Made by a program: the position numbers and the translations under genes
The notes under the pieces: generated by a model
Seen by the model: the letters and a program-made list of their open reading frames with translations, nothing else
Told to the model about the DNA's origin: nothing
Database searches by the model: none
Shown: piece by piece, positions 16,441 through 40,338 of the stretch
Layout: each line of letters opens with the position of its first letter
Position numbering within the stretch: the first letter of the stretch is position 1
DNA from: Mariprofundaceae bacterium
GTDB taxonomy: Bacteria > Pseudomonadota > Zetaproteobacteria > Mariprofundales > Mariprofundaceae
NCBI GenBank assembly: GCA_021772895.1
Contig: JAJFLC010000001.1
Coordinates: forward strand, 1-64,000
Length of the DNA: 64,000 bases
Reading direction: 5' to 3'

Positions 16441-16483
16441 CAATTTGTTGCAAAATTGAAAGTTATCCGCTATATATTGTTCT

Positions 16484-19771: not shown

Positions 19772-19780
19772 TGTAGCCCC

Positions 19781-20818: not shown

Positions 20819-20942
20819 ATAACCTTTCAATATTAAAGAGTTGGGTATGTTGGCATTTTTCATGTTAAATATTGGCTGAGTCCAAAGGCCCCCGCAATCT
20901 ACAATATGATCCTAAAAGCGGACATTCGGTATTTTTACACCT

Positions 20943-22788: not shown

Positions 22789-22800
22789 GATTCACCTCCT

Positions 22801-23466: not shown

Positions 23467-23499
23467 GGACACCTCTATTATTCTGTATAATCACGTATG

Positions 23500-23545
23500 G
23501 TGTAATTTATACACGAACAATAGTGTGTGAATTACACTATGTCAA
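23500..23545 (-). promoter_or_regulatory. Promoter with two NrtR-type operator palindromes
   Basis: On the minus strand TTGACA (23540-23545) and TATTGT (23517-23522) are separated by exactly 17 bp. The palindrome GTGTAATTTATACAC (23500-23514) covers the expected transcription start. A second, GTGTGTGAATTACAC (23523-23537), fills the spacer between -35 and -10. Both share the form GTGTr-N5-TACAC. This is a strong layout for repression by the Nudix/winged-helix protein encoded just downstream. Confidence 0.75.
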
Positions 23546-24300
23546 ATGTTGACGCTGTAACGAACAATGTACTGTCCTTCCTTATGTGTCTTGGACTATG
23601 AAAATATCCCTAACCATCCCTAACACTGAATACAAGCCCTTTGTATAAAAGGTGTTATGGACAGAGTTGAGATCACTGCTGATGCTTGCTTGGGTAATAT
23701 GTAGGCTGCAAGAACTACACAAGGTTATGCAGCATAAATATGTGTAGTTATTTTATGTTGGCGCAACTTGTGAGTCCAAGGCTTATAAAAACAATGTTTT
23801 AATTTGAAAGTACACCATAAAAAAGGGGATGTACTAATAAACAGCTAATTACTATTGTTCTTATGGAACTTTTCATAAGTTCCCTTCCTGTGGCCCTGAC
23901 TTTCCCAAACCAAGTCAAGGCCGTTTGTTTTTCTACTTGAGCGTATTGCTTTATGCAAAGCCAGTTGAATGATTTCTTCAATTCAGCTGTTCAAGTGCTC
24001 TCTGAAGCCTTTCAATCTCTAATCTTGCAGTAGAGAGTTCTGTTTTAAACTCGATTGATATTTAACTAACCTTTTCCGACCGTTCGAGACCACAGTTTGG
24101 GCAATACATAGCACCTCATTACAAGATTGTAATATTACGCCGCGCAATATTACGCCGCGTGATGTTGCGCATTGGCTTATGACAGAGAAATGCAGATGTT
24201 GTTGAAATGGAATTACACAGGGTCGGACAAGCGCCGCTTTCCGATTCTGGCAAAGCTTACGTTGAAGCAAGTCGTTCGCTTTTTAAAGTCAAGATAGTCT
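23546..24300. other. Cargo spacer with no intact gene
   Basis: About 750 bp carry no convincing gene on either strand. A minus-strand stretch near 23985-24060 translates to a helical fragment ending ELSTARLEIERLQRALEQLN, probably the tail of a decayed gene. A hairpin with arms GGAACTT/AAGTTCC lies at 23865-23883. AATATTACGCCGCG occurs twice in tandem (24131-24144 and 24146-24159). The region abuts the IS3 element and looks like debris from earlier insertions. Confidence 0.5.
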
Positions 24301-25128
24301 TTAAGCAGCTAACGCCAACTTTTGAGCTGGAGTTATGCCGCCGATAGCCATATTAGGTCGGTCATTATTGTACGTCCATAACCATTTGGTTGCGTAGTAT
24401 TGAACTTGCTCAATGCTCTTGAAGATATATTGGCTCAACCAGTCATATCGAACGGTACGATTATAGCGTTCAACATAAGCATTTTGTTGTGGGTTTCCAG
24501 GCTGGATAAAGTCGAGTTTAATATCATTCTTTTTAGCCCAGTCTTTGAGCAATTGACTGATATATTCAGGCCCGTTATCACTGCGTATCCGCTTGGGTTT
24601 ACCTCGCCATTCAATCACCCGATCGAGCGCACGGATTATACGTATTGCAGGTAGTGAAAAGTCAGCCTCAATGGTTAATCCTTCACGGTTAAAGTCATCA
24701 ATGACATTGAACAAACGGAAGCTTCGACCATCACCAAGTTGGTCATGCATGAAATCCATCGACCAGCATTCATTGATCGCATCAGGCACCATCAGAGCAT
24801 CCGGTTTATCACGTTTCAAACGCTTTTTCGGTCTGATGCGCAAATTGAGTTCAAGCTCCCTATAGATGCGGTAAACACGTTTATGGTTCCATCGAAAACC
24901 TTTCACATTACGCAGGTACAAAAAGGATAGTCCGAAGCCCCAATTGATCTGGTTTTGCGTGAGACGAATCAACCAATCAGCAATAATTTCATTCTCAGGC
25001 TGTAACTTGGATTGATATCGATAACAGGCCTCACTTATAACAAAGGCACTGCAAGCAAGACGAATGCTTGCACAGGTTGTCGTAACGGCCTTCTGCACCA
25101 TTTTTCGACGTTCAGAAGGCTTTACCAC
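24301..25128 (-). CDS. IS3-family transposase OrfB (DDE integrase core)
   Basis: The 275 residues contain an HTH_21-like N-terminal part and a complete DDE core: Asp125 (WSMDFMHD), Asp184 (RSDNGPEY) and Glu220 ([11 protein letters not shown]), with the expected D-35-E spacing. It is expressed as an OrfAB fusion by -1 frameshifting in this family. The start at 25128 overlaps orfA by 7 bp. The reading frame is full length, so the element may still be, or recently have been, active. Confidence 0.92.
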
Positions 25129-25388
25129 TTTTTTGCCATGGCTTCCTGAACGATTTCATACTTGAGACGTTCTTCAGCATACATTCGCTTCAAACGACTA
25201 TTCTCAGCTTCAAGTTCTTTCATCCGGGCCATCATTGATGCATCCATGCCACCATATTTACTGCGCCATTTATAGAATGATGCCGAACTCATACCATGTT
25301 CTCGACAAAGTTCAGGGACTGGAACTCCGGCCTCTGCTTGCTTCAGAATCGCCATGATTTGGCTGTCTGAATAGCGTGATTTCTTCAT
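25122..25388 (-). CDS. IS3-family OrfA (helix-turn-helix)
   Basis: The 88-residue protein has the typical OrfA layout: a helix-turn-helix ([16 protein letters not shown]...[10 protein letters not shown]) followed by a leucine-zipper coiled coil ([21 protein letters not shown]). It binds the IS ends and is joined to OrfB through frameshifting. The sequence [12 protein letters not shown] is characteristic of the IS407/IS51-like OrfA proteins. Full length, no disruption. Confidence 0.92.
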
Positions 25389-25562
25389 GTAGAATCTCCT
25401 TTTTTTATCTTAATAGAAAATTCTACTTTTAACTCCTGTCATTTTTCGGGGGATTAGCCTAATGCGTGCAATGAATGCATATCTTTTATGGAAAGGTTGT
25501 AGTGGTTCAATAATTGCACAGGATTAGAAAAGGGTAATATTTTACAATTAGGAGATTACCCC

Positions 25563-25637
25563 ATGAGTGACAGGAAACGAACTACATATACCCAAGAATT
25601 CAAACGGGAAGCATATATTAAGAGTCAGCAGCTGTAG
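25563..25637 (+). pseudogene. 5' fragment of a second IS3-type orfA
   Basis: After a GGAGATTACCCC leader an ATG opens a 24-codon frame (MSDRKRTTYTQEFKREAYIK...), the start of an IS3-type OrfA, which ends abruptly against the 3' end of the cysteine desulfurase gene. It is the remnant of another insertion or deletion event beside the defence locus. The bases 25456-25562 before it hold no gene. Confidence 0.6.
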
Positions 25638-25638
25638 C

Positions 25639-26811
25639 CTACACTAAGCTCATCATAACATTAATCTCATTTGAAATTTGAACCGCAGCCTCTAACACTT
25701 CTTTCTCTGTAGTAAAGCGCCCAAAGGCAATTCTTAGCGAGCTTTCTATTTGTTTGCCCGTGAGTCCTATTGCTTTAAGAACATATGAATCTCTTATTTC
25801 ACCCGAATTACAAGCTGAGCCGGTTGATACGGCAATTCTTGGTTGCAATCGCATAATGAGAGCCTTTACATCAACTCCATGAAATTGAACATTTAAATTC
25901 CCAGGATGACGCTTTTTAAAATCACCATTAATCTGAAAGCTAACTTTCAAATTCATAAGCTCGTGCAAGAAGGTATCTCTTAATTTCAACAGCCTAGATA
26001 TTTCACTATCTTTATTTTCCATCACCAAACAAACAGCTTTCGCTATGGAAGCCGTTAAGGCAGGTGATAATGTGCCTGACCTAAATCCATTTTGTTGCCC
26101 ACCTCCATGTATAATGGGGGATGGCTTTATCCTTACATCTTGACTGATATAGAGAGCACCTATTCCTTTTGGAGCATAAATTTTATGCCCCGACAAACTC
26201 AACAGGTCAATATTATTATGAATAACATCTATATCTAAATATGCCGCTTGGGCTGCATCAACATGAAAAATGGTGTTGTGCTTTTTGCATAGTCTACCAA
26301 TATCTATTAAAGGCTGACATGTACCTATTTCATTGTTAACAGCCATAATAGAAACAAGTAAAGTGTTTCTATCTATTTCTTCTTCTAAAGTTTTAAGGCT
26401 AATTATCCCAGATTTATGTACAGGTATGACTGCAATTTCAAATCCAAACAAATCACGTAGGTGATATGCTGCGTTTAAGACACATTTGTGTTCAATAGCC
26501 GAAACAATAATCTTATTCTTAGGATCTTTTTTTAACTTTGCAGCTATTGCAGTACCAATGATTGCTAAATTATTGGCCTCACTTGCTCCAGATGTAAAAA
26601 TGATTTCATCTGGTAAAGCATTAATAAATGATGCTACATCCGCCTTTGCCACCTCAATAATTTCTTCTGCATCCCATCCCCACGCATGTTCAGAAGCATG
26701 AGGATTACCATAGATATATGAGTTAACATGTTGAAATATATCAGATATTTCAGGATCACATGGTGTAGATGAATTGTAGTCTAAATATATTCTTAAATCA
26801 TTACTTAGCAT
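25639..26811 (-). CDS. sspA: Cysteine desulfurase (SspA/DndA-like)
   Basis: A PLP-dependent class V aminotransferase of 390 residues that strips sulfur from cysteine. Lys210 in SGHK binds PLP, His108 lies in IEHKC, and the persulfide Cys334 sits in the loop SACNSG. The length and motifs fit IscS/DndA/SspA equally. The assignment as SspA comes from context: it is divergent from sspB-sspC-sspD homologues across a 124-bp gap, the arrangement described for ssp loci. It would pass sulfur to the SspD Fe-S protein for DNA backbone phosphorothioation. The 3' end abuts an IS3 fragment but the gene is complete. Confidence 0.85.
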   Translation of the reverse strand: MLSNDLRIYLDYNSSTPCDPEISDIFQHVNSYIYGNPHASEHAWGWDAEEIIEVAKADVASFINALPDEIIFTSGASEANNLAIIGTAIAAKLKKDPKNKIIVSAIEHKCVLNAAYHLRDLFGFEIAVIPVHKSGIISLKTLEEEIDRNTLLVSIMAVNNEIGTCQPLIDIGRLCKKHNTIFHVDAAQAAYLDIDVIHNNIDLLSLSGHKIYAPKGIGALYISQDVRIKPSPIIHGGGQQNGFRSGTLSPALTASIAKAVCLVMENKDSEISRLLKLRDTFLHELMNLKVSFQINGDFKKRHPGNLNVQFHGVDVKALIMRLQPRIAVSTGSACNSGEIRDSYVLKAIGLTGKQIESSLRIAFGRFTTEKEVLEAAVQISNEINVMMSLV

Positions 26812-26935
26812 ATTTCACTCAAGTTCTTATTATTTGAAACCTTACTTTTTGGAAGAGCTAACCAAGAGATTGACATTCTTTATAACTGTAAGCAATCTTT
26901 AGCTTGGTTCAATGTTCCAAAGAAAGGAAAAAGTA

Positions 26936-27871
26936 ATGCGAAATAATTCATACGAACAAGATTTCATCAAGCCTGTTTTTTCGGGGCATGAGACCTTCCC
27001 TTTAAGATATGGATGGCTAAAAAAAACATATGATGTCGTCTCTGAAGCTGAGCGTAACATGCTGGATGCAAAGGATGTTTTCAACTGTCCCGAGTCCGTA
27101 TCTTCATTCGGCGTCGGTAAAAATATGGTTTCATCTATGCGTCACTGGGCCGTTCACACTGGCATCCTAGAAGCCAACAAGATTACTACGCAAGCACATG
27201 AAGTCTTATCTGATGATGGACTTGACCCATGGATGGAAAACCCAACTACGCTGTGGATGTTGCATTGGAAGCTAGCTCGTCAACCTAACTTGGTCACATA
27301 TCATTGGTTCTTTAATTATTACAATGGTGGGATGTTTGACAGAAAATTCATCAATGATGAAGTTGATGAACTTTGTACAAATAAGGAGTGGCGTAAACCT
27401 TCATCCATCACCTTAAAAAGAGACGTCGAATGTTTCGTTCGCATGTATGCAGGGAAAGACCTAACTTCCCGCTGCTATGGTGACGAGTCAATTGAGTCCC
27501 CATTGTCCGAACTATCTTTAATCAAGCCTATGAACAAACAAGGTTTCTTTATCCCTAACCGAGGCCCTAAAGCAACCCTTAGCATAGGAATGTTTATGCT
27601 TGCCCTAGTTACTTTTTGGGAAGAATACTCAGCATCTGGCTCCTCATTGTCATTGGAGTCCATGCTTTATGACCCAACGTCACCTGGAAGAATATTTTTA
27701 TTAGATGAGACTGGGATTTTAGAAAAAGTTTATGCCCTTCCTACTTTTTTTGCTGGAAAAATTGATTGGTCTGAAACAGCTGGGATGCGCCAGTTTACCA
27801 TTGCATCAAACTCCAACTTATCTGAAATTAAAAACATCGCATCAAACTTAATGAGAACAGAGTACAATTAA
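26936..27871 (+). CDS. sspB: DUF4007 family protein, SspB-like
   Basis: The 311-residue protein begins near FSGHETFPLRYGWLKK, the hallmark of DUF4007 proteins found beside PAPS-reductase-like DNA sulfur modification genes; SspB of the single-strand phosphorothioation system is reported to act on DNA as a nickase. ATG at 26936 is preferred to 26912 because AAAGGA lies just upstream of it. The stop shares one base with the sspC start. A TTGACA at 26870-26875 could be its -35 but the -10 is weak. Function is from family and context; I see no classical nuclease motif by eye. Confidence 0.75.
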   Translation: MRNNSYEQDFIKPVFSGHETFPLRYGWLKKTYDVVSEAERNMLDAKDVFNCPESVSSFGVGKNMVSSMRHWAVHTGILEANKITTQAHEVLSDDGLDPWMENPTTLWMLHWKLARQPNLVTYHWFFNYYNGGMFDRKFINDEVDELCTNKEWRKPSSITLKRDVECFVRMYAGKDLTSRCYGDESIESPLSELSLIKPMNKQGFFIPNRGPKATLSIGMFMLALVTFWEEYSASGSSLSLESMLYDPTSPGRIFLLDETGILEKVYALPTFFAGKIDWSETAGMRQFTIASNSNLSEIKNIASNLMRTEYN

Positions 27872-30800
27872 TGAAATCTGATAAAAAGATACACATTGGC
27901 CAAGGGTTTAAAAGATCAATTAACCTTCTAGAAGACCAATCAAACAAATCTATTCTTGAAAGTTATATTTGCCCTGCTTCATTAGAGCAAGTGCTATTTT
28001 CCATGGTTCAGCATATTCAAATGGGGCAAGCATCTTTTACTTGGACCGGGCCATATGGAGCAGGCAAGTCTAGCCTAGCTTTATTTACATCAGCCCTAGC
28101 TTCAGGGGAACTTAGCTTACATAAAGTAACATCAAATAAGCTTTCAAAACACAAAGAAGAAATCACCAGTTTTTTCAATTCTCATTTTACACGTCAGATT
28201 TTACCAATAATTGGCCGATTAGAAAACCCTATAAAAACTTTCTCTAAAGCCTTAAATATTGAAAATGACGTAGATACTATCTTTGCAAAACTAACAGCCG
28301 TAGCCAATGAAAACGATGGATTAATTATCTTTGTTGATGAGATGGGTAAGTTCTTAGAGCAGGCCTCTGCAGAAAGTGATGTTGACGTTTATTTCTTTCA
28401 ACAGCTAGCTGAGCTTGCAAACCGAAGTAAGGGTAAAATTATTTTAGTCGGCATATTGCATCAATCATTTGCTGAGTATTCAAGAAACTTACCCAAATCT
28501 TCACGCGATGAATGGATTAAAATTCAAGGCCGTTTCGTTGACCTTTCAGTAAATGCTGCTGGCGAAGAACAGATTGAGTTAATTTCTCGGGCAATTGTTT
28601 CTAAAGATAAACCTAAAGAAATTTCTAAATCAGTCCGTGAAATTTCTAAGTTAATTGTAAAAAATCGACCCGCGAACCTAAATCACTTAGAACAATCTCT
28701 AAATAAATGTTGGCCATTGCACCCAATTGTCGCAGCCCTTTTGGGTCCGGTATCTCGCAAAAGATTCGGGCAAAATCAACGAAGCATATTTTCCTTCTTA
28801 AGTTCTGCAGAACCTTTTGGATTCCAAGATTTCCTTAAAACCACTGAATATTCGAAGGGCATATGCTACACACCATCTATGTATTGGGATTACCTTCAAG
28901 CCAATTTAGAAAGTGCTATTATAGCATCCCCCTCTTCAAAAATGTGGGCTATGGCTATAGATGCTTTAAACAAATGTGCTGTTAGTAGTGATCATGATTC
29001 TTCAATACGTGTATTAAAAACACTCGCTGTCGTTGACCTTTTTAAAGGTATTTCCGGGTTATCTGTGACTATAAACGCTCTAAAATCAGTATTCCCAGAA
29101 GAAAACATTGATGATATTTTGAACCAGCTGCAAGGTTTATCCCTCATCCGCTTTAATAAATATTCTGAAAGTTTTTCTTTATATGAGGGGAGTGACTTTG
29201 ATATTGATGATGCTGTAAATGAAGCTTACAAACATATTACTGATATAGATTTCCAAAAACTACATCAAATAGCCTCTTTTCTGCCTGCCGTTGCTAAACG
29301 GCATTATCATTCAACAGGTGCCTTACGCTGGATGGACATTAGGCTTGCACCAGTTTCTACGATAAAATCTTTATCAGACAATAATGACACTCATTCTTTT
29401 GGAACATTCTCAATGATTATACCAAAAAATGAGACTGAATATACAAAAGCTTACAAACTTATTACGAACCCAAGGTTAACACCCAGCTCAAAACCTAAAA
29501 TATTCAGTTTAGCTTCTGAGTTCGGAAAGTTATTTGAGTTCTCTCGTGAGTTGCTAGCCCTAGAATGGCTTCAAAAGAACTCCTCTGAGTTAAGTGGTGA
29601 TAGAATAGCAAGAAAAGAAGTCGAAAACAGGTGCTCCTTAGTTTCTTCATTGCTAGGGCAGGCTTTAGAACACGCGGTTCATAAAGAAGTATGGTACCAA
29701 AATTCTACGCCTCTTGGGACGCTTACAGGCCTTCAAATGTCATCTCTGTGTTCAGATTTAGCTGACAGTATTTTTCATAAGTCTCCAATATTAAGAACTG
29801 AAATGCTAAACCGAAGTAACCCATCTGGAAGTGCAAACGGTGCATTAAATGCTCTGCTAAAAAGAATGGTACTCCACAAAGGTGAAGAAAGGCTTGGTAT
29901 TGAAGGTTACCCTGCAGAAGGAAGCCTCTTTAAAATAATGCTTGAAGGTACGGGGTTATATTCCAAGGTAACGGATGAATGGCAATACATCTGCCCTGAA
30001 GGAGATTCCTTCAAACTTTCTGAACTATGGGACTTTACAGATGAACTTTTAATTTCCTACCAACAAAATTTCAGTTTAAAGGCTTTATATAAAAAATGGA
30101 GCCTACCACCCTTCGGTATAAAAAGTGGGTTACATGCATTCCTAGTAACAAGTTATTTATTAACTAAAAGAGGACATGTTGCAGTATATCTAAATGACAC
30201 ATATATCCCTGAGGTAGATGATTTATTTATTGACTACCTCGTAAAAAATACAGTCGATATTTCTTTAAGATATGTAAGTGATGATCAAGATAAAAAGATA
30301 ATTCTTTCAAAAATAACTAAGGGATTATCGACAAACAAGTCTCTTAATTTAAACTTGCATGAAAACTCATCTCCTCTAGAAGTATCTCGTGAATTAGTCA
30401 AATTAGTAGATGATCTAAACCCATGGGTATTAAGGACTAGATCATTGTCCCCGAAAACCGCTAAGCTTCGTGAATTAGTTAAGACTGCCCATGACCCTAA
30501 TAAACTAATTTTTGATGATTTAGCATCATTATACAATTTATATGAACAGCCTAGCCTAGGCATTAATGATCTGTCCTTATCTTTAGCTGAGCTTAGTGAT
30601 GCATACCCTAATTTGCTTAAGAGGATAGGGCAGCTAATAATGAGTGAACTTCAGGTAGGCGTAGTTTCCGATGCTACGATCCAAAGGCTCAGGGAAAGGG
30701 CAGAGAATGTTCGTCATGCAAGTGGGGATTTTAGAATTGATGCATTAGCAGCTCGATTATCTACATTCACCCAAACTCAAACGGACATATCAGGGATTGC

Positions 30801-31173
30801 TAGCTTAGCCGCAAATAAACCCATACATGATTGGATTGACCTAGATCTTGATAGAGCTTGTTTAGAGATTGCTGTTTTATGCGAAGGGTTTAAAAAAGCC
30901 GAGCTTTACGCGCGGATAAAAGGCAAGAGGCCAAATAGGCATGCAATCACTTTTACATCGGGCCTGTCAGGTAGTGATAATGTGTATCAACTATCATTTG
31001 ATGTCTTAGAGGACAATAAATCTTGTATTGAAGAGATCAAAACAAAGCTGCTATCTTTACTTGAAAGCGAAGTTGATGATCCATTATTAGCCTTGACAGC
31101 AATCACTGAACTGAGTGTCGACTATATAGAGAAGATTGAATCTCAAAGATCCGTACATGGGATATCTTTATGA
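27871..31173 (+). CDS. sspC: Large P-loop ATPase, SspC-like
   Basis: The 1100-residue protein carries an N-terminal P-loop ATPase: Walker A GPYGAGKSS at 60-68 and Walker B LIIFVDE at 151-157. A sensor-like ILVGILHQ follows. The rest, about 700 residues, is helical and shows no recognised catalytic motif. It lies between SspB- and SspD-like genes, with 1-bp and 4-bp overlaps, so the three are translationally coupled. In the ssp system SspC is the ATPase component needed for modification. Length and order fit; sequence-level assignment is by position and Walker motifs rather than detailed similarity. Confidence 0.75.
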   Translation: MKSDKKIHIGQGFKRSINLLEDQSNKSILESYICPASLEQVLFSMVQHIQMGQASFTWTGPYGAGKSSLALFTSALASGELSLHKVTSNKLSKHKEEITSFFNSHFTRQILPIIGRLENPIKTFSKALNIENDVDTIFAKLTAVANENDGLIIFVDEMGKFLEQASAESDVDVYFFQQLAELANRSKGKIILVGILHQSFAEYSRNLPKSSRDEWIKIQGRFVDLSVNAAGEEQIELISRAIVSKDKPKEISKSVREISKLIVKNRPANLNHLEQSLNKCWPLHPIVAALLGPVSRKRFGQNQRSIFSFLSSAEPFGFQDFLKTTEYSKGICYTPSMYWDYLQANLESAIIASPSSKMWAMAIDALNKCAVSSDHDSSIRVLKTLAVVDLFKGISGLSVTINALKSVFPEENIDDILNQLQGLSLIRFNKYSESFSLYEGSDFDIDDAVNEAYKHITDIDFQKLHQIASFLPAVAKRHYHSTGALRWMDIRLAPVSTIKSLSDNNDTHSFGTFSMIIPKNETEYTKAYKLITNPRLTPSSKPKIFSLASEFGKLFEFSRELLALEWLQKNSSELSGDRIARKEVENRCSLVSSLLGQALEHAVHKEVWYQNSTPLGTLTGLQMSSLCSDLADSIFHKSPILRTEMLNRSNPSGSANGALNALLKRMVLHKGEERLGIEGYPAEGSLFKIMLEGTGLYSKVTDEWQYICPEGDSFKLSELWDFTDELLISYQQNFSLKALYKKWSLPPFGIKSGLHAFLVTSYLLTKRGHVAVYLNDTYIPEVDDLFIDYLVKNTVDISLRYVSDDQDKKIILSKITKGLSTNKSLNLNLHENSSPLEVSRELVKLVDDLNPWVLRTRSLSPKTAKLRELVKTAHDPNKLIFDDLASLYNLYEQPSLGINDLSLSLAELSDAYPNLLKRIGQLIMSELQVGVVSDATIQRLRERAENVRHASGDFRIDALAARLSTFTQTQTDISGIASLAANKPIHDWIDLDLDRACLEIAVLCEGFKKAELYARIKGKRPNRHAITFTSGLSGSDNVYQLSFDVLEDNKSCIEEIKTKLLSLLESEVDDPLLALTAITELSVDYIEKIESQRSVHGISL

Positions 31174-32006
31174 TGAATAATAAAGAGAAACATGTTCTTG
31201 GTATATCAGGTGGTAAGGATAGCGCTGCTTTAGCGGTCTTCATGCGCGACAACTACCCTGAACTAGATATAGAGTATTTTTTTACTGACACAGGTAAAGA
31301 GCTTCCCGAAGTATATGAATATTTAAGTAGGCTTGAAGGCTACCTAGGCAAGCCTGTTCTTCGAATAAACCCTAACCGTGACTTCGATTTTTGGCTCATG
31401 CACCATAATAATTATTTACCATCTCCAAGAGCACGATGGTGCACTATAAAAATGAAGCTTAAGCCCTTTGAAGATTGGGTTAAACCATTTCTAGCTGATG
31501 GTTATAGTGTTTATTCTTATGTAGCAATTAGATCAGATGAAGAGTTTCGTGAAGGGTATCAATCTAATGATGAAAATTTACGAATAAAACTCCCTTTTGC
31601 AGAAAATGGCATTGATAAACAAGCAGTAATTAATATTTTAGAGCACTCTGGGCTGGGAATGCCTGAATACTATAAATGGCGATCACGTAGTGGATGTACT
31701 TTTTGCTTTTTCCAACGCAAGATAGAATGGGTGCATTTAATGAAAGAGCATCCTGAAGCGTTCGAAGAAGCTAAAGCATACGAAAAGAAAGCTACTGAAC
31801 ACGGCTCTCCATTCACATGGTCGGAAAGAGAATCATTAGACGAACTCTCTCGGCCTGAACGTGTGGCGCAAATTAAATCTGACTATGAGAAACGGCTGGA
31901 ACGCGCTAAAAGTAAAAGAATAGCTAACCCATTACGAACACATGAAGAAATTGATTTAGATGAGCTCTACGGTAAATCTAAAGTATGCCTAGCATGCCAT
32001 AAGTGA
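31170..32006 (+). CDS. sspD: PAPS-reductase-like ATP pyrophosphatase, SspD/DndC-like
   Basis: The 278-residue protein has the PP-loop SGGKDS (13-18) that activates substrate with ATP, and cysteines placed to hold an Fe-S cluster: Cys91 (RWCTIK), Cys176 and Cys179 (GCTFC), plus a C-terminal CLAC pair (273, 276). This is the layout of DndC/SspD, which mobilise sulfur for DNA phosphorothioation. It overlaps sspC by 4 bp (ATGA) and ends 3 bp from the convergent kinase gene. The pairing with a cysteine desulfurase in the same cluster supports sulfur chemistry on DNA rather than sulfate assimilation. Confidence 0.85.
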   Translation: MMNNKEKHVLGISGGKDSAALAVFMRDNYPELDIEYFFTDTGKELPEVYEYLSRLEGYLGKPVLRINPNRDFDFWLMHHNNYLPSPRARWCTIKMKLKPFEDWVKPFLADGYSVYSYVAIRSDEEFREGYQSNDENLRIKLPFAENGIDKQAVINILEHSGLGMPEYYKWRSRSGCTFCFFQRKIEWVHLMKEHPEAFEEAKAYEKKATEHGSPFTWSERESLDELSRPERVAQIKSDYEKRLERAKSKRIANPLRTHEEIDLDELYGKSKVCLACHK

Positions 32007-32009
32007 ATA

Positions 32010-32894
32010 TTACGACTCTATTGCCGCTATTAAGTCATCACGAAAGCCTTGAGCGTCTGCATAGCGATTTTTGGGATTCTGTTGAAGAGCCTTAACAAGA
32101 ACCTTGTAAACTTCTTTTTTCCCTCGCCAATCTTTTTCTAACGGAATGCCCGAAGGGTGAAGCCTTGTTGTCACAAACCAAAAAAATGATGCTAGCTGAA
32201 ACACATCAGATGTTTTACCTATCTTGGCAAACCTACCCTTTACCCCAATTGACCTGTTCATGGCTTCGGGTGACATCCAAAATCGCGGACCAATATTCTC
32301 ATTTTCATTTGTAAGGTCAGGCTGCGACTTGTTAATAATCGAATTAAGACCCAAGTCACTAATTACCCACCTGTTCCCAACACAAAGTATATTCTGAGGC
32401 TTAATGTCTCGATGAATAATATCTTGATTATGTAGTGTACTTAGAGCCTCAACTAACCCTCTGAATTGAGCATGATAAATATTTGAATCTATTTTAATGG
32501 ATTTCCTTACGAACTTCATCAAATTCCCGTTGTCAGAAAGCTCCATAATCAAGTAAGAAAGGTTTTTCTCATACACCCTCTTCCGCTGGTTACGTATTGA
32601 CTTAATACGTCCTGAGCATAAATATGAAATGATGTGTGGGTGACCACACCCTTCTAAAGCAAAGCACTCTCTTTTAAACCTGGTCTTGTTCTTGGCGCTG
32701 TCATGAAGAAGAAATTTAATTGCATATTCATCGCCAGTAGCCTGATTGATGCACTTGTGCACAACCGCATTCCCACCACAATCTAGCCGATCCTCAATGG
32801 AAAATATTGAGCCTTGATTCTCAACTCTACTTGGTACTTTATAGATTTTATGCTTTTCATATTGAAGGAAAAGCTCAATCATTTTTTTAGCCAC
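32010..32894 (-). CDS. Hanks-type Ser/Thr protein kinase
   Basis: A compact 294-residue eukaryotic-like kinase without membrane segment or sensor domain. Visible motifs: Gly-rich loop LDCGGNAVV (38-45, lacking the usual first glycine), YAIK with Lys60, catalytic loop HRDIKPQN (161-168), DLG (180-182, usual DFG) and a SPE activation-segment end. All essential catalytic residues are there, so it should be active. It is the last gene of the five-gene minus-strand operon and overlaps the DUF262 gene by 16 bp. Kinases do occur in phage-defence loci, and the tight coupling suggests it phosphorylates a partner encoded here; the target is unknown. Confidence 0.85.
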   Translation of the reverse strand: MAKKMIELFLQYEKHKIYKVPSRVENQGSIFSIEDRLDCGGNAVVHKCINQATGDEYAIKFLLHDSAKNKTRFKRECFALEGCGHPHIISYLCSGRIKSIRNQRKRVYEKNLSYLIMELSDNGNLMKFVRKSIKIDSNIYHAQFRGLVEALSTLHNQDIIHRDIKPQNILCVGNRWVISDLGLNSIINKSQPDLTNENENIGPRFWMSPEAMNRSIGVKGRFAKIGKTSDVFQLASFFWFVTTRLHPSGIPLEKDWRGKKEVYKVLVKALQQNPKNRYADAQGFRDDLIAAIES

Positions 32895-34159
32895 GTATAG
32901 TTATCTTCACTACCTTCTAGACAATCTTGATGACAGATCTTTACTTGACTAAGGAAAACACGGCCTTTTGGGCAACAGTATACATCTTTAAACTGAGTAG
33001 CTTCATTATTGCAAATAACGCAATCATCTATCGATGGCGGGCACATTCCGCTATCCCAGCAATCTATTAGCTCCTTGAACAATGATAGTCGTTTTTGAGT
33101 ATCAAGATCAGGATCATATAATCCAAGAAGTATAAGTCTTAGAAACTCTGCTCTCCACGCTCTACTTGACGATGAATTTGAATCTCCTAAGCATTTTACT
33201 GCGTACTCCCCATACTTTCCAGGCGCATTAGGCTCAATATTTTCATCCAAGATCGTCAAATCTTTTACTAAATCTGTTAACCTTTCTGGGTTCAATACTA
33301 GTTTTTTATTTAATAAATCGCCTGTAATTGTTTCATTATGCAAGTCATTAATTGCTGAAAACAGTGCGTAGAAATCTGCTTTTTGCTTAAATCTAGTGGC
33401 CCTTATTGCAAACTCACTTTCATTAAAAATTAACTCAATATCATTCAGAATGGCAAGAAATTTTTGTTCAACTTTAGATGCATCCTCTTTGCCCCATTCA
33501 GCATACTCGGTATAAAAACTATCAAGACTTTCTTTTTTGTCTTGTATTCCATTTATGAGAATAGCTAATAGTTCTGAAGTAAACTCTACATCCCCTAGTC
33601 GCTTCCTACTCGCTGGAGTAAAAACTTTTGCATTATCCATGTAGTCATTTAATGAAAGTTTCTCACATAGATCCAGAAATACTCCTGGGAAGTCCGCACG
33701 ACGCAACTCTTGTTTATTCAACGCTATTGTGTACCTATTTACTCTACCATACATCTCCCTAAGCTCTGTTTCATTATAATTGGAAACCTCATTAAAATCC
33801 AACTGATAACCCAAAATATCAATTTGTTGATCTTTACTAAGCTCCTTAAACGTTTTACCTTGACCCTCCCCTTGATATGGTTTTGTCAACGCAAAATCGT
33901 TGGCTAAAAAAGAAAGTATCGCCCCTATTCTTTGCTGCCCATCAATCACAATCCTGTATGTGATTTCCCCTTTTATTGTTTGAGCTATGAAAAATTTGGG
34001 CATAGGCAAGTCTCTTAGTATCGAATCAATCAATAGAATCTTCGCCTGCTCACTCCACACGGCTCTTCTTTGAAAGTCCGGCTGAATCTCCAGCCTCCCT
34101 GCTTTTTGCCAATCTCTTACATCCGAGACTGGATGTTGCGTAGAATTCCATTTACCCAT
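32879..34159 (-). CDS. DUF262 (ParB-like/SspE-N-type) protein with C-terminal Cys cluster
   Basis: The 426-residue protein has the DUF262 hallmarks: QPDFQRRAVW (26-35) and the NTPase-like motif DGQQR (73-77). DUF262 forms the N-terminal NTP-using sensor half of SspE and GmrSD. The expected C-terminal DUF1524/HNH nuclease is absent. Instead the tail carries about seven cysteines (CVIC, YCC, ICHQDC) that could bind zinc. It overlaps the PLD gene by 8 bp and the kinase by 16 bp. I infer a phosphorothioate- or nucleotide-sensing subunit whose nuclease is supplied in trans, most likely by the neighbouring PLD protein. Confidence 0.8.
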   Translation of the reverse strand: MGKWNSTQHPVSDVRDWQKAGRLEIQPDFQRRAVWSEQAKILLIDSILRDLPMPKFFIAQTIKGEITYRIVIDGQQRIGAILSFLANDFALTKPYQGEGQGKTFKELSKDQQIDILGYQLDFNEVSNYNETELREMYGRVNRYTIALNKQELRRADFPGVFLDLCEKLSLNDYMDNAKVFTPASRKRLGDVEFTSELLAILINGIQDKKESLDSFYTEYAEWGKEDASKVEQKFLAILNDIELIFNESEFAIRATRFKQKADFYALFSAINDLHNETITGDLLNKKLVLNPERLTDLVKDLTILDENIEPNAPGKYGEYAVKCLGDSNSSSSRAWRAEFLRLILLGLYDPDLDTQKRLSLFKELIDCWDSGMCPPSIDDCVICNNEATQFKDVYCCPKGRVFLSQVKICHQDCLEGSEDNYTWLKK

Positions 34160-35099
34160 TGAGTATTCCCTTGCAGACCAATTTTATTTTTTGTGAATAG
34201 TTTGGTTGTGAAATTTCTATCTCACCTTGCAAAAATACCTGACAGTAAGCTAATAAATTTTGAACCAGCGACTTTACATCTTTTCGGTACGGAGAAGGGT
34301 CATCTTTTAGATCTTCATGCAACAGCTTTGTAAGTTTTCCAAAGTATAGCTCTTGATTATTTTGGCCTTCTAGTTTTGAGATAAGCCATTGAACACACCT
34401 GCTCATAAGTAGCTTATTACTTACCTCACTCTCTTTGATATCAAATGATTCAATTCCTATAAGGTGATGGTCATGAAGTTTTTCATTTCCATTTGGGGTT
34501 CGAGAGCTTGGGTTATACCAGAACAAATCATGAACCCAGATGCCTTCATCATGAGGCAAAGTTCCCACGGGCCATTGGTTCAAATGAATAGAGGGTTCTT
34601 TTTTAATGATACAGTCTTCCATTTTTTGAAGAATTTCATTATTCAGCTCATTAGAAGATTTCTCAATATTTGATATAAAACGTAAATTTTCTTCATTAGC
34701 AGGCACACTAGAACATGCCTCTAAATTTCCTGACCCATATATTTTTAGTCCATTACTCGTAAGGTTTGCGCTCCCTACATAAATCTCATTATCATCTATT
34801 GAATATATTTTAGCATGCAATGAATGCAAACAAGATACCTTCCAACCTCGCTGCATAGCTGTTGATAAAGCAGATATTTGAGTTGCCCCATTAATGATAT
34901 CAGAAGGCTGCAGCTTGCAGACTAAATGCACATGCACCTCTGGTGAGATGTGCTTCTCAAGCCAATCCACAGCTGTTTGTGTAATATACGCTGAAATGAA
35001 CACAATCTTTTTTTCACAACCTGCTATTGATTGCTCTAGCACCTCTCTAAGCTGCTCCCCATCAATTAGTAAGTAGTCAATTGAGGAAACCTTAAGCAT
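34152..35099 (-). CDS. Phospholipase D-like nuclease-family protein
   Basis: The 315-residue protein carries one HKD motif: LHAKIYSIDDNEIYVGSANLT, with His95, Lys97, an Asp at 102-103 and GSxN at 109-112. Proteins with a single HKD usually dimerise to form an active site; the class includes Nuc, the BfiI nuclease domain and the DISARM protein DrmC. The C-terminal half (about 150-315) is of unknown type. Overlaps of 8 bp with both neighbours show tight operon packing. It is the best candidate for the DNA-cutting subunit of this operon. Confidence 0.85.
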   Translation of the reverse strand: MLKVSSIDYLLIDGEQLREVLEQSIAGCEKKIVFISAYITQTAVDWLEKHISPEVHVHLVCKLQPSDIINGATQISALSTAMQRGWKVSCLHSLHAKIYSIDDNEIYVGSANLTSNGLKIYGSGNLEACSSVPANEENLRFISNIEKSSNELNNEILQKMEDCIIKKEPSIHLNQWPVGTLPHDEGIWVHDLFWYNPSSRTPNGNEKLHDHHLIGIESFDIKESEVSNKLLMSRCVQWLISKLEGQNNQELYFGKLTKLLHEDLKDDPSPYRKDVKSLVQNLLAYCQVFLQGEIEISQPNYSQKIKLVCKGILNG

Positions 35100-36849
35100 T
35101 TTTCTTTAAAGCTTTTAAAAAGTCTTGTAGGTGCCCACCCCAACGAGAGCGAATTTTCTCAAGCTCATCTTCATAACTATACAGCTCTTCTTCTGTTCTC
35201 GTATAAGCCATCATCATCAAATCTATTGCATCAGTTAATGCAGGGTCATCCTTTGACAAGGGTTCATATAACTCTGTATAAAACGGATGCTTTTTATTTA
35301 TAATAACGACAGGAGTGCTTCCTCGTGTTTCTATACTAAAAAACTGTTCCCCAGGCCAAAGGCCAAATTCGATATCTATTTTTAAGCCTGTTTTTTCTTC
35401 CGCAATCTTTGCAAGCTCCTCCTTAGAGAGGCCCGTTGCATCTAATTCTAGCTTGTCCAACCACTCCTGAGTCATTTCCTCTTCTGTTTTACTTGCGCCT
35501 TCGATTTGAGCCTTTGTATTTTCATTGGAACCCGCTAGCACCTCATTCGCAACCTTCGTTGACTTAGGCGTTGGGTTACTACCACCTCTATTTCCTTTAG
35601 CTCTATTTTTTATTATATCCATAATTGTTTTATGATTACTAGCAAAAGCCTTACTCAATTGATGCCTAAGATTAAGCTTTAAGTCGTCTTTAAACTCATC
35701 TTCCCAATGCTCGCCATGATCTTCTTTAAACACTTTTTCATCTAACTTCTTAATTCCTCTTACAGATTGTTTGTTATTTGTGACACCAAACAGGTCATCT
35801 AAAATAGGGTTAAATCTAATTTCACAGCCCCACCACCTCTGTACTTCCTCAAGAGCGTTAAAAAAACCAAAATCACCGAAATCAATTTCTCTACATGCAC
35901 GAACAAAGGATATGCCTGTATTATGCGCATAATGCTTTTGCCCGATACCACCTGTTCCACCTTCGTTACTTTGGATTTCAGGCAAGGCAATAGAGAACCT
36001 CATTTCCACAACAGATGTATCACCATTGTCATTATAAGGAACATCAAGCTTAACAATACCGTGGGATATGTTAGTGGCGTCATTCCCATGACCTGGCACA
36101 TTGTTTGGTGTCAATAAATAGGTGGGGTCATTGGCTTTTAATAAATGAACCGCGCGGTCTTTACCTACAGCAACAAGTTTAACATTTACTCGATGTCCAT
36201 AAGAGTTGTCATTATCAAGAAAGTGTCTATAAATTCGGCATAAAGCCTTTTCCATATTTCTATATAGTGTTGTTGACCGTGATATGTCTAATCTATCACA
36301 CTTATCCCAAAGTACTAACGTCCCAGAATCGGCATTATATTTGCCCTCAATCTGCTCAAGTATAGTCACTGGAAGTTCACATTCTACTACCGGGTTGGCG
36401 TTCTGGCTTTTATGTTCTTTTGTTTCATCAACATCTAGGTATGTCTTGAAACAATTGCCATCTTGCCAAGAAAAAACCTCCACTCGACGGCATTGACTTA
36501 CAGATGCGTTTGGCAACCCTATACCAAAACGCCCCATTCCTTTTCTGGTAGTCATCCTAGTACCAACGCCAAATTGTAACGATAGCTGTAGGGTTTCAAT
36601 ATCCATCCCATCCCCATCGTCATATACAGCAACTTGAGTAATCTTTGTAACTTTTCGATTAACCCCTTGAATTACTTCTTCAAAAGTTAGCACTTGAATA
36701 TTTTCTGCGCCTGCTTCAATCGAATTATCAATAAGTTCTGCCAACGCTGAAGCTGTACTTTTATAACCTGCGTCTCGAAATGTTTCTAGAGCCGTGGCTG
36801 CTGGAATTAAAGGGGTATCATATTCCATTGTTTTTGCTATTTCAGTCAT
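35092..36849 (-). CDS. GHKL-family ATPase (HATPase_c_3, MutL/Hsp90/MORC-like)
   Basis: The 585-residue protein (ATG at 36849, GGGGAG at correct distance; an upstream TTG at 36864 is less likely) has the Bergerat-fold ATP-binding motifs: AELIDNS with Glu38 and Asn42, DDGDGMD (about 77-83) and GMGRFGIGLPNAS (about 104-116). The rest is unlike MutL or histidine kinases. Proteins of this class act as ATP-driven DNA clamps and occur in several phage-defence loci. It begins 2 bp after the helicase stop and overlaps the PLD gene by 8 bp. It probably gates or loads the nuclease. Confidence 0.85.
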   Translation of the reverse strand: MTEIAKTMEYDTPLIPAATALETFRDAGYKSTASALAELIDNSIEAGAENIQVLTFEEVIQGVNRKVTKITQVAVYDDGDGMDIETLQLSLQFGVGTRMTTRKGMGRFGIGLPNASVSQCRRVEVFSWQDGNCFKTYLDVDETKEHKSQNANPVVECELPVTILEQIEGKYNADSGTLVLWDKCDRLDISRSTTLYRNMEKALCRIYRHFLDNDNSYGHRVNVKLVAVGKDRAVHLLKANDPTYLLTPNNVPGHGNDATNISHGIVKLDVPYNDNGDTSVVEMRFSIALPEIQSNEGGTGGIGQKHYAHNTGISFVRACREIDFGDFGFFNALEEVQRWWGCEIRFNPILDDLFGVTNNKQSVRGIKKLDEKVFKEDHGEHWEDEFKDDLKLNLRHQLSKAFASNHKTIMDIIKNRAKGNRGGSNPTPKSTKVANEVLAGSNENTKAQIEGASKTEEEMTQEWLDKLELDATGLSKEELAKIAEEKTGLKIDIEFGLWPGEQFFSIETRGSTPVVIINKKHPFYTELYEPLSKDDPALTDAIDLMMMAYTRTEEELYSYEDELEKIRSRWGGHLQDFLKALKKNA

Positions 36850-36851
36850 AG

Positions 36852-38489
36852 TCAATCTCCCCAATAGTTATCGAAAAATTTAAAAGCCTTACCCTCTGAT
36901 GGATACCCTACTAAATTATCTTCTAGGTCAACTAAGGTACAATCAGGAGTCCCACTCATTTTAGGCCCTCGAATTCCTCGGCCAATCATTTGTGAATATA
37001 GCACTAACGACCCTGTTGGACGGGTAATCACAACAGCACTCGTATTTGGAGCATCAAAGCCTGTAGTAAGCACCCCATAATTAACAAGGACGTTAACCCG
37101 ACCAGCCTTATACTCTTTGACATATTCAACCCTGTCATGAGACGGCGTACTCCCATCTACACATCTGGAAGATATGCCTCTAATCATAAGTAGTTCAGAT
37201 AATAAATGCGCATGGTTTACAGAGCATGCAAAAACAATCGTTTGGCAGCCTTTTTCGCACAAATCAGCCACTTCCTTAATAATAAGCACATTTCTTTGTT
37301 CATCTTTTGATAAGGCAATAAGAACTCTATTAGGAAGCCCTAGAAATTCACCAACAGAAGCCCTCTCGGCAGCTGTTAAATCAATTGTAATATTAGTAGA
37401 AACTTGCTTTCGCGTAATTTTTGATAGATATTCATTTGCTTGTAAAAACCCAATAGGGTCTTCTATTTCCTTATAGTTCGCATCAGTCAAACTAATTTTT
37501 ATTCCGCCGTAAAACGATACTAATTCATCAATTTGTTCTAGATTAGTCCGCCCAGGAGTAGCCGTCAGCCCAATCAGCTTCGTTTTGTCTAAATCACATA
37601 AAAACTCAATCGTTGCTTTATATGTAGGAGCAATACTTTTATGAGCCTCATCTACAACTATTAACCGGACTCTTTTACGGATAGCTGTGATAAGCTTAAA
37701 CTCTTCATTTTTTGGAGTTGTTCTTAAAGAGTGAAGCTTTTGTAAACTTGCAATGATTAAGCCACCTTCTTCACTAAGCTCTGTAATTTTATGAGAACCC
37801 CACATTCGGTTCAGGTTTATTGGTCGATCTCCTCTGATTTTCCACATTTTCTCAAATGTTTCCTCAGCCTGAGTACAAAGTTCTTCTGAGTCAGTAAGCC
37901 AAATCATAAACCCTGCTGAATCACTTTGAGTACGCCAATAATCGACTAGCCCCTCAATAGTGGTCCTTGTTTTACCTGCACCTGTTGGCATATGTAACAA
38001 AACACGCTGCGATGGAGATAACAGCAAACGAACCAACTGATCTTTTACGCGTTTTTGGTATGCATATAGCGGGAAGTCAGCTAGTAAGTTATCTGAACTA
38101 GGCATATTCTCACGAATAGGTGGAAGATATCCATCATTTAAACTAAATAAAGCTAGCCAGTTCATTGTAATAACGTTACTACGCTTCCATGGTGCATTAT
38201 TAAGCTTCAAAAGACCTTCTTTAGTTAAATCTTGCTGATGACTATTTTCACCAAACAATAAGAATAAAAGGCTGTCTCGATCAGCTGAATGTAGTAATGC
38301 CCCTCTAATATCCTTATTTGCAAGAATCTGACTGCCAAACTTTGACAACAAAATATCAGCCATTTGACGTTCAGTAACCCTGCCACCTAAAGTTGATACA
38401 ATTGCCGTTAAACGCTCTTCTCCAACAAGTTCAGTAAGCTTTGCCGCCCCGCACTTTCTCAACGACCTCTTTAGCTCAAGTAATTTCAT
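36852..38489 (-). CDS. SF2 DEAH-type helicase (ResIII/DEAD family)
   Basis: The 545-residue protein has an N-terminal domain of about 140 residues, then a complete superfamily 2 core: Walker A MPTGAGKT (167-174), VVDEAH (278-283), LTATPGR, a helicase C domain and motif VI QMIGRGIRG. It resembles the translocase subunit of restriction systems and the helicases of DISARM- or Ssp-linked loci. It is the first gene of the five-gene minus-strand operon. Its promoter would lie in or before the 63-bp gap after tnsE; no obvious promoter is seen there, so read-through from tnsE is possible. Confidence 0.88.
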   Translation of the reverse strand: MKLLELKRSLRKCGAAKLTELVGEERLTAIVSTLGGRVTERQMADILLSKFGSQILANKDIRGALLHSADRDSLLFLLFGENSHQQDLTKEGLLKLNNAPWKRSNVITMNWLALFSLNDGYLPPIRENMPSSDNLLADFPLYAYQKRVKDQLVRLLLSPSQRVLLHMPTGAGKTRTTIEGLVDYWRTQSDSAGFMIWLTDSEELCTQAEETFEKMWKIRGDRPINLNRMWGSHKITELSEEGGLIIASLQKLHSLRTTPKNEEFKLITAIRKRVRLIVVDEAHKSIAPTYKATIEFLCDLDKTKLIGLTATPGRTNLEQIDELVSFYGGIKISLTDANYKEIEDPIGFLQANEYLSKITRKQVSTNITIDLTAAERASVGEFLGLPNRVLIALSKDEQRNVLIIKEVADLCEKGCQTIVFACSVNHAHLLSELLMIRGISSRCVDGSTPSHDRVEYVKEYKAGRVNVLVNYGVLTTGFDAPNTSAVVITRPTGSLVLYSQMIGRGIRGPKMSGTPDCTLVDLEDNLVGYPSEGKAFKFFDNYWGD

Positions 38490-38552
38490 GTATTGATTCC
38501 CATTCCCGATATCTTGTAATAACGTAGACAGAATGTCTTGGCATGTCTAGTT

Positions 38553-40226
38553 TTAGACTGATGATACACTTGCAAGATAAGCTCCCCATTTATCACTAGT
38601 TTTGCATAAGTGATGCAAGCGCTTAATCTTTATGTCTTTTGATTTAAAGTGTTTGCTATCCCAATGCCCGTTATTTTCAATCATTTTTTCTACCCACTTA
38701 GCAGGATCCGTCGCCTTACCTATATCAGTCAATATGAGTGTTGATAAAGAGAATTTATTGTCCTTTACGTCTCTTCCAACCTCTAGAAAATAGAAATTTA
38801 TCCCTTTGAACGTAATACAAGCCAAACACCAAGCCCTATCCCGGTCATCATTCATTTTCAGAAACCACCGTGAGCCACAATCCTTTGGCTTAACCAAAGT
38901 GGTTCCGGGTTTCAACCAGTGTAGAGAGGCTTCATCTCCAAGTAAGGTTTTGGTGTGATTGAGCGCTTTCACAAAGCACTCAAGGCCGTTCCATCGAAGG
39001 GAGACTTCTATGTCTTTAGTGCCGACACCAAGAGGCGGAGAATCTGTCGAAGAGCCTTGAGATGAAGCACGATCAGTTAGATGCCCATGCCTTTTCTCTG
39101 GCAGATCGCGTCCAGTGGTTTTAGTTGGTGTTGAGATATTTGAACTGACCGTTGGAGCTTCTTTCTTTTGGGTAAATTCAGGGGTGATCATGATGTTATC
39201 GAGATCTGATAAAGAGGTTGATTGGATATGAATGTATTTCTTTGGTCTTGATGTGTGCGAAGAGGGGGTGTCTAAGATGAGCTCTTCAGAAGGTGACTCA
39301 TCGGACGGCAATTCAGAGGTGTCAGTGAATTCCTCTCCTTTATGTTTGTTTTTGTATCTTGGCTCCCCCTCCCGTTTGCGTTCAATATAGTTTGGATGCG
39401 TTGGCACAATTGTTTTGAATGGAACTGAATATCCACGGACATCTAAAATTTCCTGAAGCCAAAAATATGAATCACCCTTTTTGCCTGTAGCCTGAATAGA
39501 TACAGGTTCATCAAAGGGCCACGTCAAATCAATGGCAGTTCCTTCTTCAGATGCTTTGGGCAGGTGGGAGGCTATTGATTGCCAACAGTTGTAGAGGCTT
39601 GGTTTGGAGGCGATAAGGGATAAGAGAGGAATGTCTCCTATTTGAGGGCGGTCTGTAAGCGTGATACTTAGTATGTCATTGTGTAGGGAATGTTCTTTGA
39701 CGAGTTCATACCAGCCATCGTACATAATGATGGTGCGGGCCATTTCTGGTGAACGAACAAACATTTTACGAAGCATCTCTAAGACCGGTAGCCAGTATTC
39801 AAAACCCTTTTCGTCAATCCAGTGAAATATTTTTGTATGGGACAATAGAGGGTCTGTCTGAAAAGCCTCGGATAGTGTTTTGTTGTCCAGCCGAATTTGT
39901 GCATCTTTCAAGGTGAGGGTTTCAATGCGTTGGTTGGGAGATAGTTCAATCCAAATGTTTTTGCCGCTTGGGTATCCATTGGATACATGAGGTGATTTTG
40001 TGAAAGTTCTGCCTGGAGTGAGTCGAGGCAGCGAAAGCCAGTCCATTTCAAGAAGGTGAATCTTTTTGTCTGTGCTCGACATGTTGCGGAATACAGCTCT
40101 GGTCGAGGGGTCTCTACCGCCTTTTGATACTTTCAGCCCATACACGAGTTCCAAACGTACCTTATCGTTATCGGAAAAAGGCCATGATTGTTTGGATACT
40201 CGGATGACCGAACTTTTAGGAATCAA
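38553..40226 (-). CDS. tnsE: TnsE-like transposition protein
   Basis: The 557-residue length matches Tn7 TnsE (538). The C-terminal part matches it in pattern: a basic patch with R-x-W-C-L-A, then FKGINFYFLEVGR, KFSLSTLIL and a helical stretch with WVEKMIENNGHW. Tn7 TnsE has a corresponding FVLLEVDAS, LSTKVL and WRNDFEKI series. A long Ser/Thr/Pro-rich linker (about 285-400) separates the halves. TnsE directs Tn7 into replicating DNA on plasmids by contacting the sliding clamp. Here the gene is not with tnsABC-tniQ but alone at the other end, reading inward, with a TTG start. Similarity is from memory of the family, hence moderate confidence. Confidence 0.7.
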   Translation of the reverse strand: MIPKSSVIRVSKQSWPFSDNDKVRLELVYGLKVSKGGRDPSTRAVFRNMSSTDKKIHLLEMDWLSLPRLTPGRTFTKSPHVSNGYPSGKNIWIELSPNQRIETLTLKDAQIRLDNKTLSEAFQTDPLLSHTKIFHWIDEKGFEYWLPVLEMLRKMFVRSPEMARTIIMYDGWYELVKEHSLHNDILSITLTDRPQIGDIPLLSLIASKPSLYNCWQSIASHLPKASEEGTAIDLTWPFDEPVSIQATGKKGDSYFWLQEILDVRGYSVPFKTIVPTHPNYIERKREGEPRYKNKHKGEEFTDTSELPSDESPSEELILDTPSSHTSRPKKYIHIQSTSLSDLDNIMITPEFTQKKEAPTVSSNISTPTKTTGRDLPEKRHGHLTDRASSQGSSTDSPPLGVGTKDIEVSLRWNGLECFVKALNHTKTLLGDEASLHWLKPGTTLVKPKDCGSRWFLKMNDDRDRAWCLACITFKGINFYFLEVGRDVKDNKFSLSTLILTDIGKATDPAKWVEKMIENNGHWDSKHFKSKDIKIKRLHHLCKTSDKWGAYLASVSSV

Positions 40227-40264
40227 TAGGCTTTAATTAGTCATATTAAAACAAAGGGTTAGAA

Positions 40265-40338
40265 AGTATCTCATTATCTATTGATCCCAGTTTTATCATT
40301 AACTAGTAGAATATCTCATTATTTAGTGTAACAGCACA
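40265..40338 (-). repeat. Right end of Tn7-like element
   Basis: The exact 15-mer AATATCTCATTATTT lies at 40310-40324 and a 13/15 match at 40265-40279, 45 bp apart. The end itself (40324-40338, reverse complement TGTGCTGTTACACTA) matches the left terminal repeat. The next base outside is 6 bp before the nrdJb stop codon as read on the minus strand, so insertion occurred just downstream of nrdJb. Confidence 0.85.

Follow-up and report, generated by a model that had tools for sequence, protein, structure and literature searches.

SspABCD proteins write phosphorothioate (PT) into host DNA, at 5'-CPSCA-3' in the studied cases. In a previous survey, neither SspE nor SspFGH was present at 2,211 of 2,678 sspBCD loci, and its authors asked about further restriction counterparts (PMC8092258). 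The question of such a counterpart is raised by a 64,000-nucleotide stretch of DNA from Mariprofundaceae bacterium (assembly GCA_021772895.1, contig JAJFLC010000001.1, positions 1 to 64,000; called the window here), in which an sspABCD block at 25639-32006 converges on an operon of five overlapping genes at 32010-38489. The initial annotation suspected a multi-subunit effector with added regulators. This suspicion was right, except that the five genes belonged to two separable modules and not to one system: a widespread triad of helicase, GHKL ATPase and nuclease, and a mobile dyad of DUF262 protein and Ser/Thr kinase. Judged from the sequences, the triad is likely a third restriction partner of SspABCD, one that seems not to have been described, and the dyad is likely a regulatory add-on. 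The locus as a whole is quite probably a transposon-borne PT defence island, in which the triad serves as the restriction module paired with the PT mark.

The sspABCD block and the triad

The sspABCD block and the three triad genes were as follows.
25639..26811 (-) SspA, cysteine desulfurase; PADLOC PDLC02759, E 1.2e-128; catalytic GSAC loop kept
26912..27871 (+) SspB (DUF4007); PADLOC E 3.8e-92; Pfam PF13182 E 5e-74
27871..31173 (+) SspC, ATPase; PADLOC E 0; Walker A conserved
31170..32006 (+) SspD, PAPS-reductase-like sulfur inserter; PADLOC E 1.6e-134
36852..38489 (-) triad gene 1, SF2 helicase/translocase; Pfam ResIII/Helicase_C; RadD-like core and helical N-terminal domain of ~120 residues
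35092..36864 (-) triad gene 2, paraMORC-type GHKL ATPase; Pfam HATPase_c_3; E43, N47, DxGxGM and GxxGxG intact
34152..35099 (-) triad gene 3, single-HKD PLD nuclease; Pfam PLDc_2; helical C-terminal domain

A PADLOC scan (PADLOC 2023) of ten proteins of the window recovered the four Ssp proteins where they had been placed from the sequence, with E values from 4e-92 to 0. All four genes were intact by these matches and the conserved residues, and by the known function of the family they constitute a PT-writing module. The end of SspD was separated from the end of the convergent kinase gene by 3 bp, and the five minus-strand genes overlapped each other by 13, 8, 8 and 16 bp, so the convergent, tightly overlapped layout described initially was confirmed. 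Pfam also agreed with the domain calls for all five proteins. The host genome comprised 2.45 Mb in 24 contigs, and its GHKL gene was single-copy.

SauUSI is a type IV restriction enzyme acting on methylated DNA. The helicase of the triad matched the profiles of RadD (1.7e-46) and SauUSI (1.3e-24), and its structure model, with a predicted local distance difference test (pLDDT) score of 86.9, found RadD as the best Foldseek match (6e-17) with SauUSI also high. The model of the PLD protein (pLDDT 90.3) had SauUSI as its best Foldseek match. Its motifs were H95-x-K97, GS110xN112 and N125xE127, of which H95, K97, S110 and N112 were invariant among 39 aligned proteins. When the GHKL protein was compared by profile with solved structures, MORC2/3/4 came first. 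The catalytic motifs were conserved throughout the homologs: the HKD residues in 56 PLD proteins, the GHKL motifs in 88 and the SF2 motifs in 75. No sulfur-binding domain was recognised in the triad proteins, and the triad itself was without a DUF262 domain. On these models, the triad would resemble a split SauUSI plus a MORC-type ATPase.

Co-occurrence of the triad with ssp genes

Ten GHKL proteins were aligned, and a genome-wide scan with this alignment yielded 80 genome loci, whose hosts span at least eight phyla by record titles (Pseudomonadota, Cyanobacteriota, Chloroflexota, Actinomycetota, Bacillota, Bacteroidota, Planctomycetota and Gemmatimonadota). The helicase was present in 78 of the 80. 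At least two of SspB/C/D were found in 67 loci, one in four and none in nine, and direct adjacency of the triad and the ssp genes was usual. Thus sulfur genes are seldom missing where the set occurs, and the association of the triad with ssp is solid. The kinase was in no other locus of the census. Among the nine ssp-free loci, four were cut by contig ends (L017, L033, L052 and L092), one adjoined SspFGH (L091) and the other four were related Chloroflexi loci. The order helicase-GHKL-nuclease adjoining SspBCD was found again in dozens of unrelated genomes, which is far beyond chance. A plasmid search with the GHKL protein also found helicase-GHKL-PLD adjoining Ssp in Pannonibacter, Mesorhizobium, Roseobacter, Hymenobacter, Treponema and Trichormus; in Geminocystis, it adjoined a DndB-like gene with SspC/D-like genes. 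In the tally of known partners, SspE was found in six of the 80 loci, SspFGH in four and neither in 70, based on two query sequences per family, by which divergent SspE may be missed.

The reverse census started from SspB (DUF4007) in two Pseudomonadota samples, 399 genomes of the phylum and 385 genomes of one class, and gave a small sample of 17 loci not selected via the triad. The triad was present in 9 of the 17; leaving out the window and its relative G011, it was present in 7 of 15. SspFGH was present in three, SspE in one (together with the triad), and none of these in five. The triad at 9 of 17 sampled SspB loci offers a concrete, testable answer to the missing-counterpart question of PMC8092258.

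SspBCD loci without the triad, SspE or SspFGH were in G183, G252, G506, G724 and G739 (L219, L225, L232, L233, L239 and neighbours). In four of them, a weakly matching helicase was nearby, and these loci may hold yet another partner. In G011, a 293-residue protein without a PADLOC match was encoded between SspA and the helicase (L105:13304-14185).

Exchange of the nuclease

The nuclease position over the 80 loci was occupied by PLD in 50, by a protein with a D...QVK motif in 8 and by an HTH-HNH protein in 9, and never by two at once. The HTH-HNH gene was found in nine cyanobacterial loci (L040, L048, L059, L060, L063, L073, L077, L078 and L082), where it overlapped or lay just upstream of a shortened helicase and replaced the PLD gene. 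The D...QVK protein matched weakly to the endonuclease effector model PDLC00735, on which its N-terminus is read here as Cap4-like. Exclusive exchange of the nuclease beside a constant helicase and ATPase is the pattern expected of a restriction complex.

In five loci (L042, L050, L061, L091 and L002), a triad with the D...QVK nuclease was located beside SspFGH, so that a single PT locus held two restriction modules.

The DUF262-kinase dyad

The remaining two genes of the operon were as follows.
32879..34159 (-) dyad gene 1, DUF262 protein; Pfam GmrSD_N; DGQQR motif; cysteine-rich C-terminus
32010..32894 (-) dyad gene 2, Ser/Thr kinase; Pkinase 1.8e-31; HRDxKxxN intact

Among 72,556 plasmid records, the best five matches of the kinase and the best five matches of the DUF262 protein were in the same records, with identities of 44-50%, and the next best was about 33%. 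The ssp genes were present in all four dyad plasmids whose neighbourhood was read; the fifth was from a second strain of the same Sphingopyxis. On two Asticcacaulis plasmids, the dyad converged on SspABCD alone, with no triad in the stretch examined. In Pseudanabaena, it directly followed SspF-G-H, all three of which were confirmed by PADLOC. In Sphingopyxis, the DUF262 gene directly followed SspH (PADLOC confirmed SspG/H) and the kinase gene was beside SspD, 38 kb apart, and mobile elements adjoined each of the separated halves. The dyad was thus found without the triad in L138, L139, L210/L140 and L141. The DUF262 protein of the window was 43-48% identical to the dyad partners in L138, L139 and L141, and the kinase was 37-42% identical to the dyad kinases. 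In 399 genomes of the phylum, the kinase had no match at E <= 1e-25, and the dyad had no close relative either there or in viral contigs (best 34%). The DUF262 neighbours in L015, L033, L046, L085 and L088 were considered as dyads and rejected, with identities of merely 21-28%. The occurrence of the dyad with SspABCD alone or after SspFGH marks it, by its sequence relatives, as a rare, separately mobile add-on of PT systems in general, outside the triad.

The DUF262 domain of SspE uses its DGQQR motif for PT-stimulated GTP hydrolysis (PMC13251355). Because the dyad DUF262 protein shares this motif, our guess is that it acts as a sensor. Its C-terminal zinc/HNH-like part looks degenerate compared with that of L015, and the C-terminus is probably degenerate. 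The dyad hints at a layer of control by protein phosphorylation that PT defence systems have in common.

Comparison with known systems

The initial annotation allowed that part of the operon was the SspFGH module, and this did not hold: the five proteins matched no SspE, SspF, SspG or SspH model of PADLOC, whose SspF/G/H models do detect true SspF/G/H in L091, L210 and L212. Of the SspFGH proteins, one is a Walker-A protein, one is unknown and one is huge and FtsK-like (PMC8092258). Like the triad, SspFGH is a three-gene partner of ATPase/translocase character that uses SspABCD, and in L210 and L212 it is followed immediately by the dyad, but its proteins are unrelated to those of the triad. 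The search for SspF in the host genome was empty, with a control set that was silent. SspE, which also uses SspABCD and starts with DUF262 and DGQQR (PMC9646914, PMC13251355), is a single protein of ~750 residues whose C-terminus is of the HNH type; the window contained no such protein, and SspE was not found in the host genome.

In PbeABCD with DndCDEA, a PLD domain and an SF2 helicase likewise serve a PT system (PMC6459918, PMC10853773). PbeA, however, fuses the two, with a CxC ABC ATPase and the DndE-like PbeD as partners, whereas the PLD and helicase of the window are split and the ATPase is of the GHKL type. The sole match of the operon was to the helicase domain of PbeA (1.3e-18), with none to PbeB-D, and this identity was rejected. 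DISARM, which is made up of DrmA, DrmB, DrmC and a methylase, was also rejected, with weak DrmC matches to the PLD domain (5e-7) alone and no DrmA/DrmB among the ten window proteins scanned by PADLOC. SauUSI (PDB 7clg), close to the PLD protein and the helicase in structure, differs in being a single PLD-helicase chain with no GHKL partner.

The MORC-type GHKL group has long been tied to restriction-modification systems, and the MORC/paraMORC operons combine GHKL, helicase and nuclease genes in methylation systems, with a few instances of an HKD domain (PMC2292703). The window similarly contained GHKL motifs with MORC affinity together with an SF2 helicase and a nuclease in one operon. The difference is that the described operons are paired with DNA methylases, whereas the window has PT genes and no methylase partner; the text of PMC2292703 is silent on PAPS reductase, on Dnd and on DNA sulfur modification. 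Later PT papers cover SspE, SspFGH, DndFGH, DndI and PbeABCD. No system already described with SspABCD matched the operon, and no account of the triad or dyad with Ssp or PT was found in the open-access literature or PADLOC 2023, a scope outside which subscription journals and preprints lay.

Proposed mechanism and alternative explanations

In animals and plants, where MORC-type ATPases are most familiar, they compact chromatin. In the restriction module proposed here, SspABCD would place PT marks in host DNA, the RadD/SauUSI-like SF2 motor would travel on DNA, the MORC-like GHKL ATPase would act in complex with it as an ATP-gated clamp or switch, and the interchangeable nuclease, here an HKD/PLD enzyme, would cut or nick invading DNA such as that of phages. 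PT on host DNA would most likely withhold the attack, as with SspFGH and DndFGH; licensing by PT, as with SspE, is the main alternative polarity. The dyad would be a separate PT-linked add-on joined to different restriction modules, in which the DGQQR site may let the DUF262 protein sense PT or nucleotides, and the kinase may tune the effector by phosphorylation. If true, MORC-type ATPases would be tied to a DNA backbone mark in bacteria. In a bolder and more tentative form, which is plausible and which we put forward without favouring it, the triad would be an undescribed, perhaps the commonest, restriction arm of single-strand PT systems, its MORC-type clamp reading PT status and driving exchangeable nucleases, while the DUF262-kinase pair would be a common phospho-regulator or PT sensor that moves from one PT effector to another and joins SspFGH, the triad or neither. 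In this form, many sspBCD loci earlier called orphans would be explained. The triad is a three-gene cassette ready for phage tests.

Several observations weigh against a triad that restricts in concert with PT. None of the three nuclease families was present in 13 of the 80 loci. The kinase was found in 0 of 92 other GHKL loci examined, and the five-gene set was seen in the window only. Four related Chloroflexi loci (L030, L035, L039 and L065) had helicase and GHKL genes, and no ssp genes were found in the stretches examined. Co-evolution of the triad and SspBCD was suspected, tested and not supported by tree distances. For 33 loci with all proteins full length, the distance correlation (Spearman, Mantel) of the GHKL protein with SspB/C/D was only 0.04-0.12 (Mantel p 0.11-0.31), compared with 0.87 for helicase-GHKL, 0.55-0.57 for PLD with both, and 0.80-0.90 for SspB/C/D among themselves (SspB-SspC 0.90). 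High divergence may blur this signal, and the correlation reported for PbeABCD with its modification genes is similarly weak (rho 0.107, PMC6459918). In G011, from the family of the host, the helicase and GHKL proteins were 51-54% identical to those of the window and SspB/SspC only 27-28%. It appears that the triad has been combined anew with different SspBCD modules, which argues against its dependence on one SspB specificity; on these comparisons, its tie to PT may be a loose one.

The uncorrelated trees and the Chloroflexi loci would fit a triad that works independently, as an anti-phage or type IV-like restriction system that shares defence islands with ssp and makes no use of PT. So would the closest structure, SauUSI, an enzyme that stands alone. 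Such independence is improbable, since SspBCD at 67 of 80 loci and the triad at 9 of 17 in reverse exceed what general clustering in defence islands would give, the adjacency to ssp genes is usually direct, and SspE or SspFGH is rare at the same loci (10 of 80). A triad licensed by PT, with host marks switching on the ATPase/nuclease that then attacks unmarked DNA, as proposed for SspE, is somewhat less doubtful and still unlikely. The dyad DUF262 protein could be the PT sensor in that case: PT stimulates SspE through DUF262 and DGQQR (PMC13251355), the motif is kept in the dyad protein, and the triad and SspE occur together in six of the 80 loci and in G011. Yet the triad lacks a DUF262 domain of its own and in most cases has none beside it, and the lack of a recognised sulfur-binding domain in it also speaks against such licensing. 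The overlap of the five genes within one operon would suit an obligatory complex with the DUF262 protein and the kinase as core effector subunits; the absence of the kinase from all other GHKL loci examined and the occurrence of the dyad without the triad make this very improbable. Hardly more credible, and at the bottom of the range, is the idea that the island has decayed or is silent and has no function in this host. An IS3 copy in the cargo and the degenerate-looking DUF262 C-terminus would agree with decay, but all genes are open and overlapping, and their catalytic motifs are kept.

In the four Chloroflexi loci, the neighbours of the helicase and GHKL genes belonged to sugar metabolism, apparently rhamnose isomerase and aldolase.

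The Tn7-like element

The sspABCD block and the five-gene operon are cargo of a Tn7-like transposon, a setting that the initial annotation overlooked, with the following features.
16341..40338 (.) Tn7-like transposon; terminal inverted repeats TGTGCCGTTACATTAATTGATGAGA / TGTGCTGTTACACTAAATAATGAGA
16484..17128 (+) TnsA-like endonuclease; NF033179 E 6e-14, under the curated cut-off
17061..18968 (+) TnsB-like DDE transposase; integrase matches under cut-off; 33% identity to L074 TnsB
18965..19771 (+) TnsC-like ATPase, from its place in the tns operon and homology to L074 TnsC
19781..20818 (+) TniQ/TnsD-like target selector, from sequence; 31% identity to L074 TniQ
38553..40226 (-) TnsE-like protein, opposite end of the element; TnsE_C E 8e-5, under cut-off

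The ends at 16341 and 40338 aligned end to end with a score of 48, compared with a maximum of 39 in 500 shuffles, and ATATCTCATTATT repeats at 16399(+), 16423(-) and 40311(+) formed repeated binding sites near the ends. The right end was 6 bp beyond the stop codon of a C-terminal NrdJ-like gene (40345-40983), which was conserved in relatives whose downstream DNA differed. A 5-bp target duplication was sought at the transposon ends and not found (CCTAC left, GTAAG right), and the left flank contained insertion-sequence debris; these two points lower the claim of an intact single insertion and leave the layout unaffected. In L074, a marine Rhodospirillaceae metagenome-assembled genome (1-17949), sspBCD, a DndB-like gene and the triad adjoined another tnsABC-tniQ set. 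This comparable element shows that the transposon link of the triad is not unique to the window. The element resembles the Tn7-like elements surveyed in PMC8649781 in layout and defence cargo; that survey lists DND and BREX cargo and Ssp is absent from its text, whereas the window carries Ssp.

Three minus-strand cargo genes at 20943-23472 were NAD kinase-like, SPFH/band-7-like and NrtR-type Nudix regulator-like, possibly an NAD-linked set of its own. The IS3-family element in the cargo was at 24301-25388. Very long repeat-rich proteins, apparently of the surface type, were encoded at 2-5362 and 9902-15937, adjoining the transposon.

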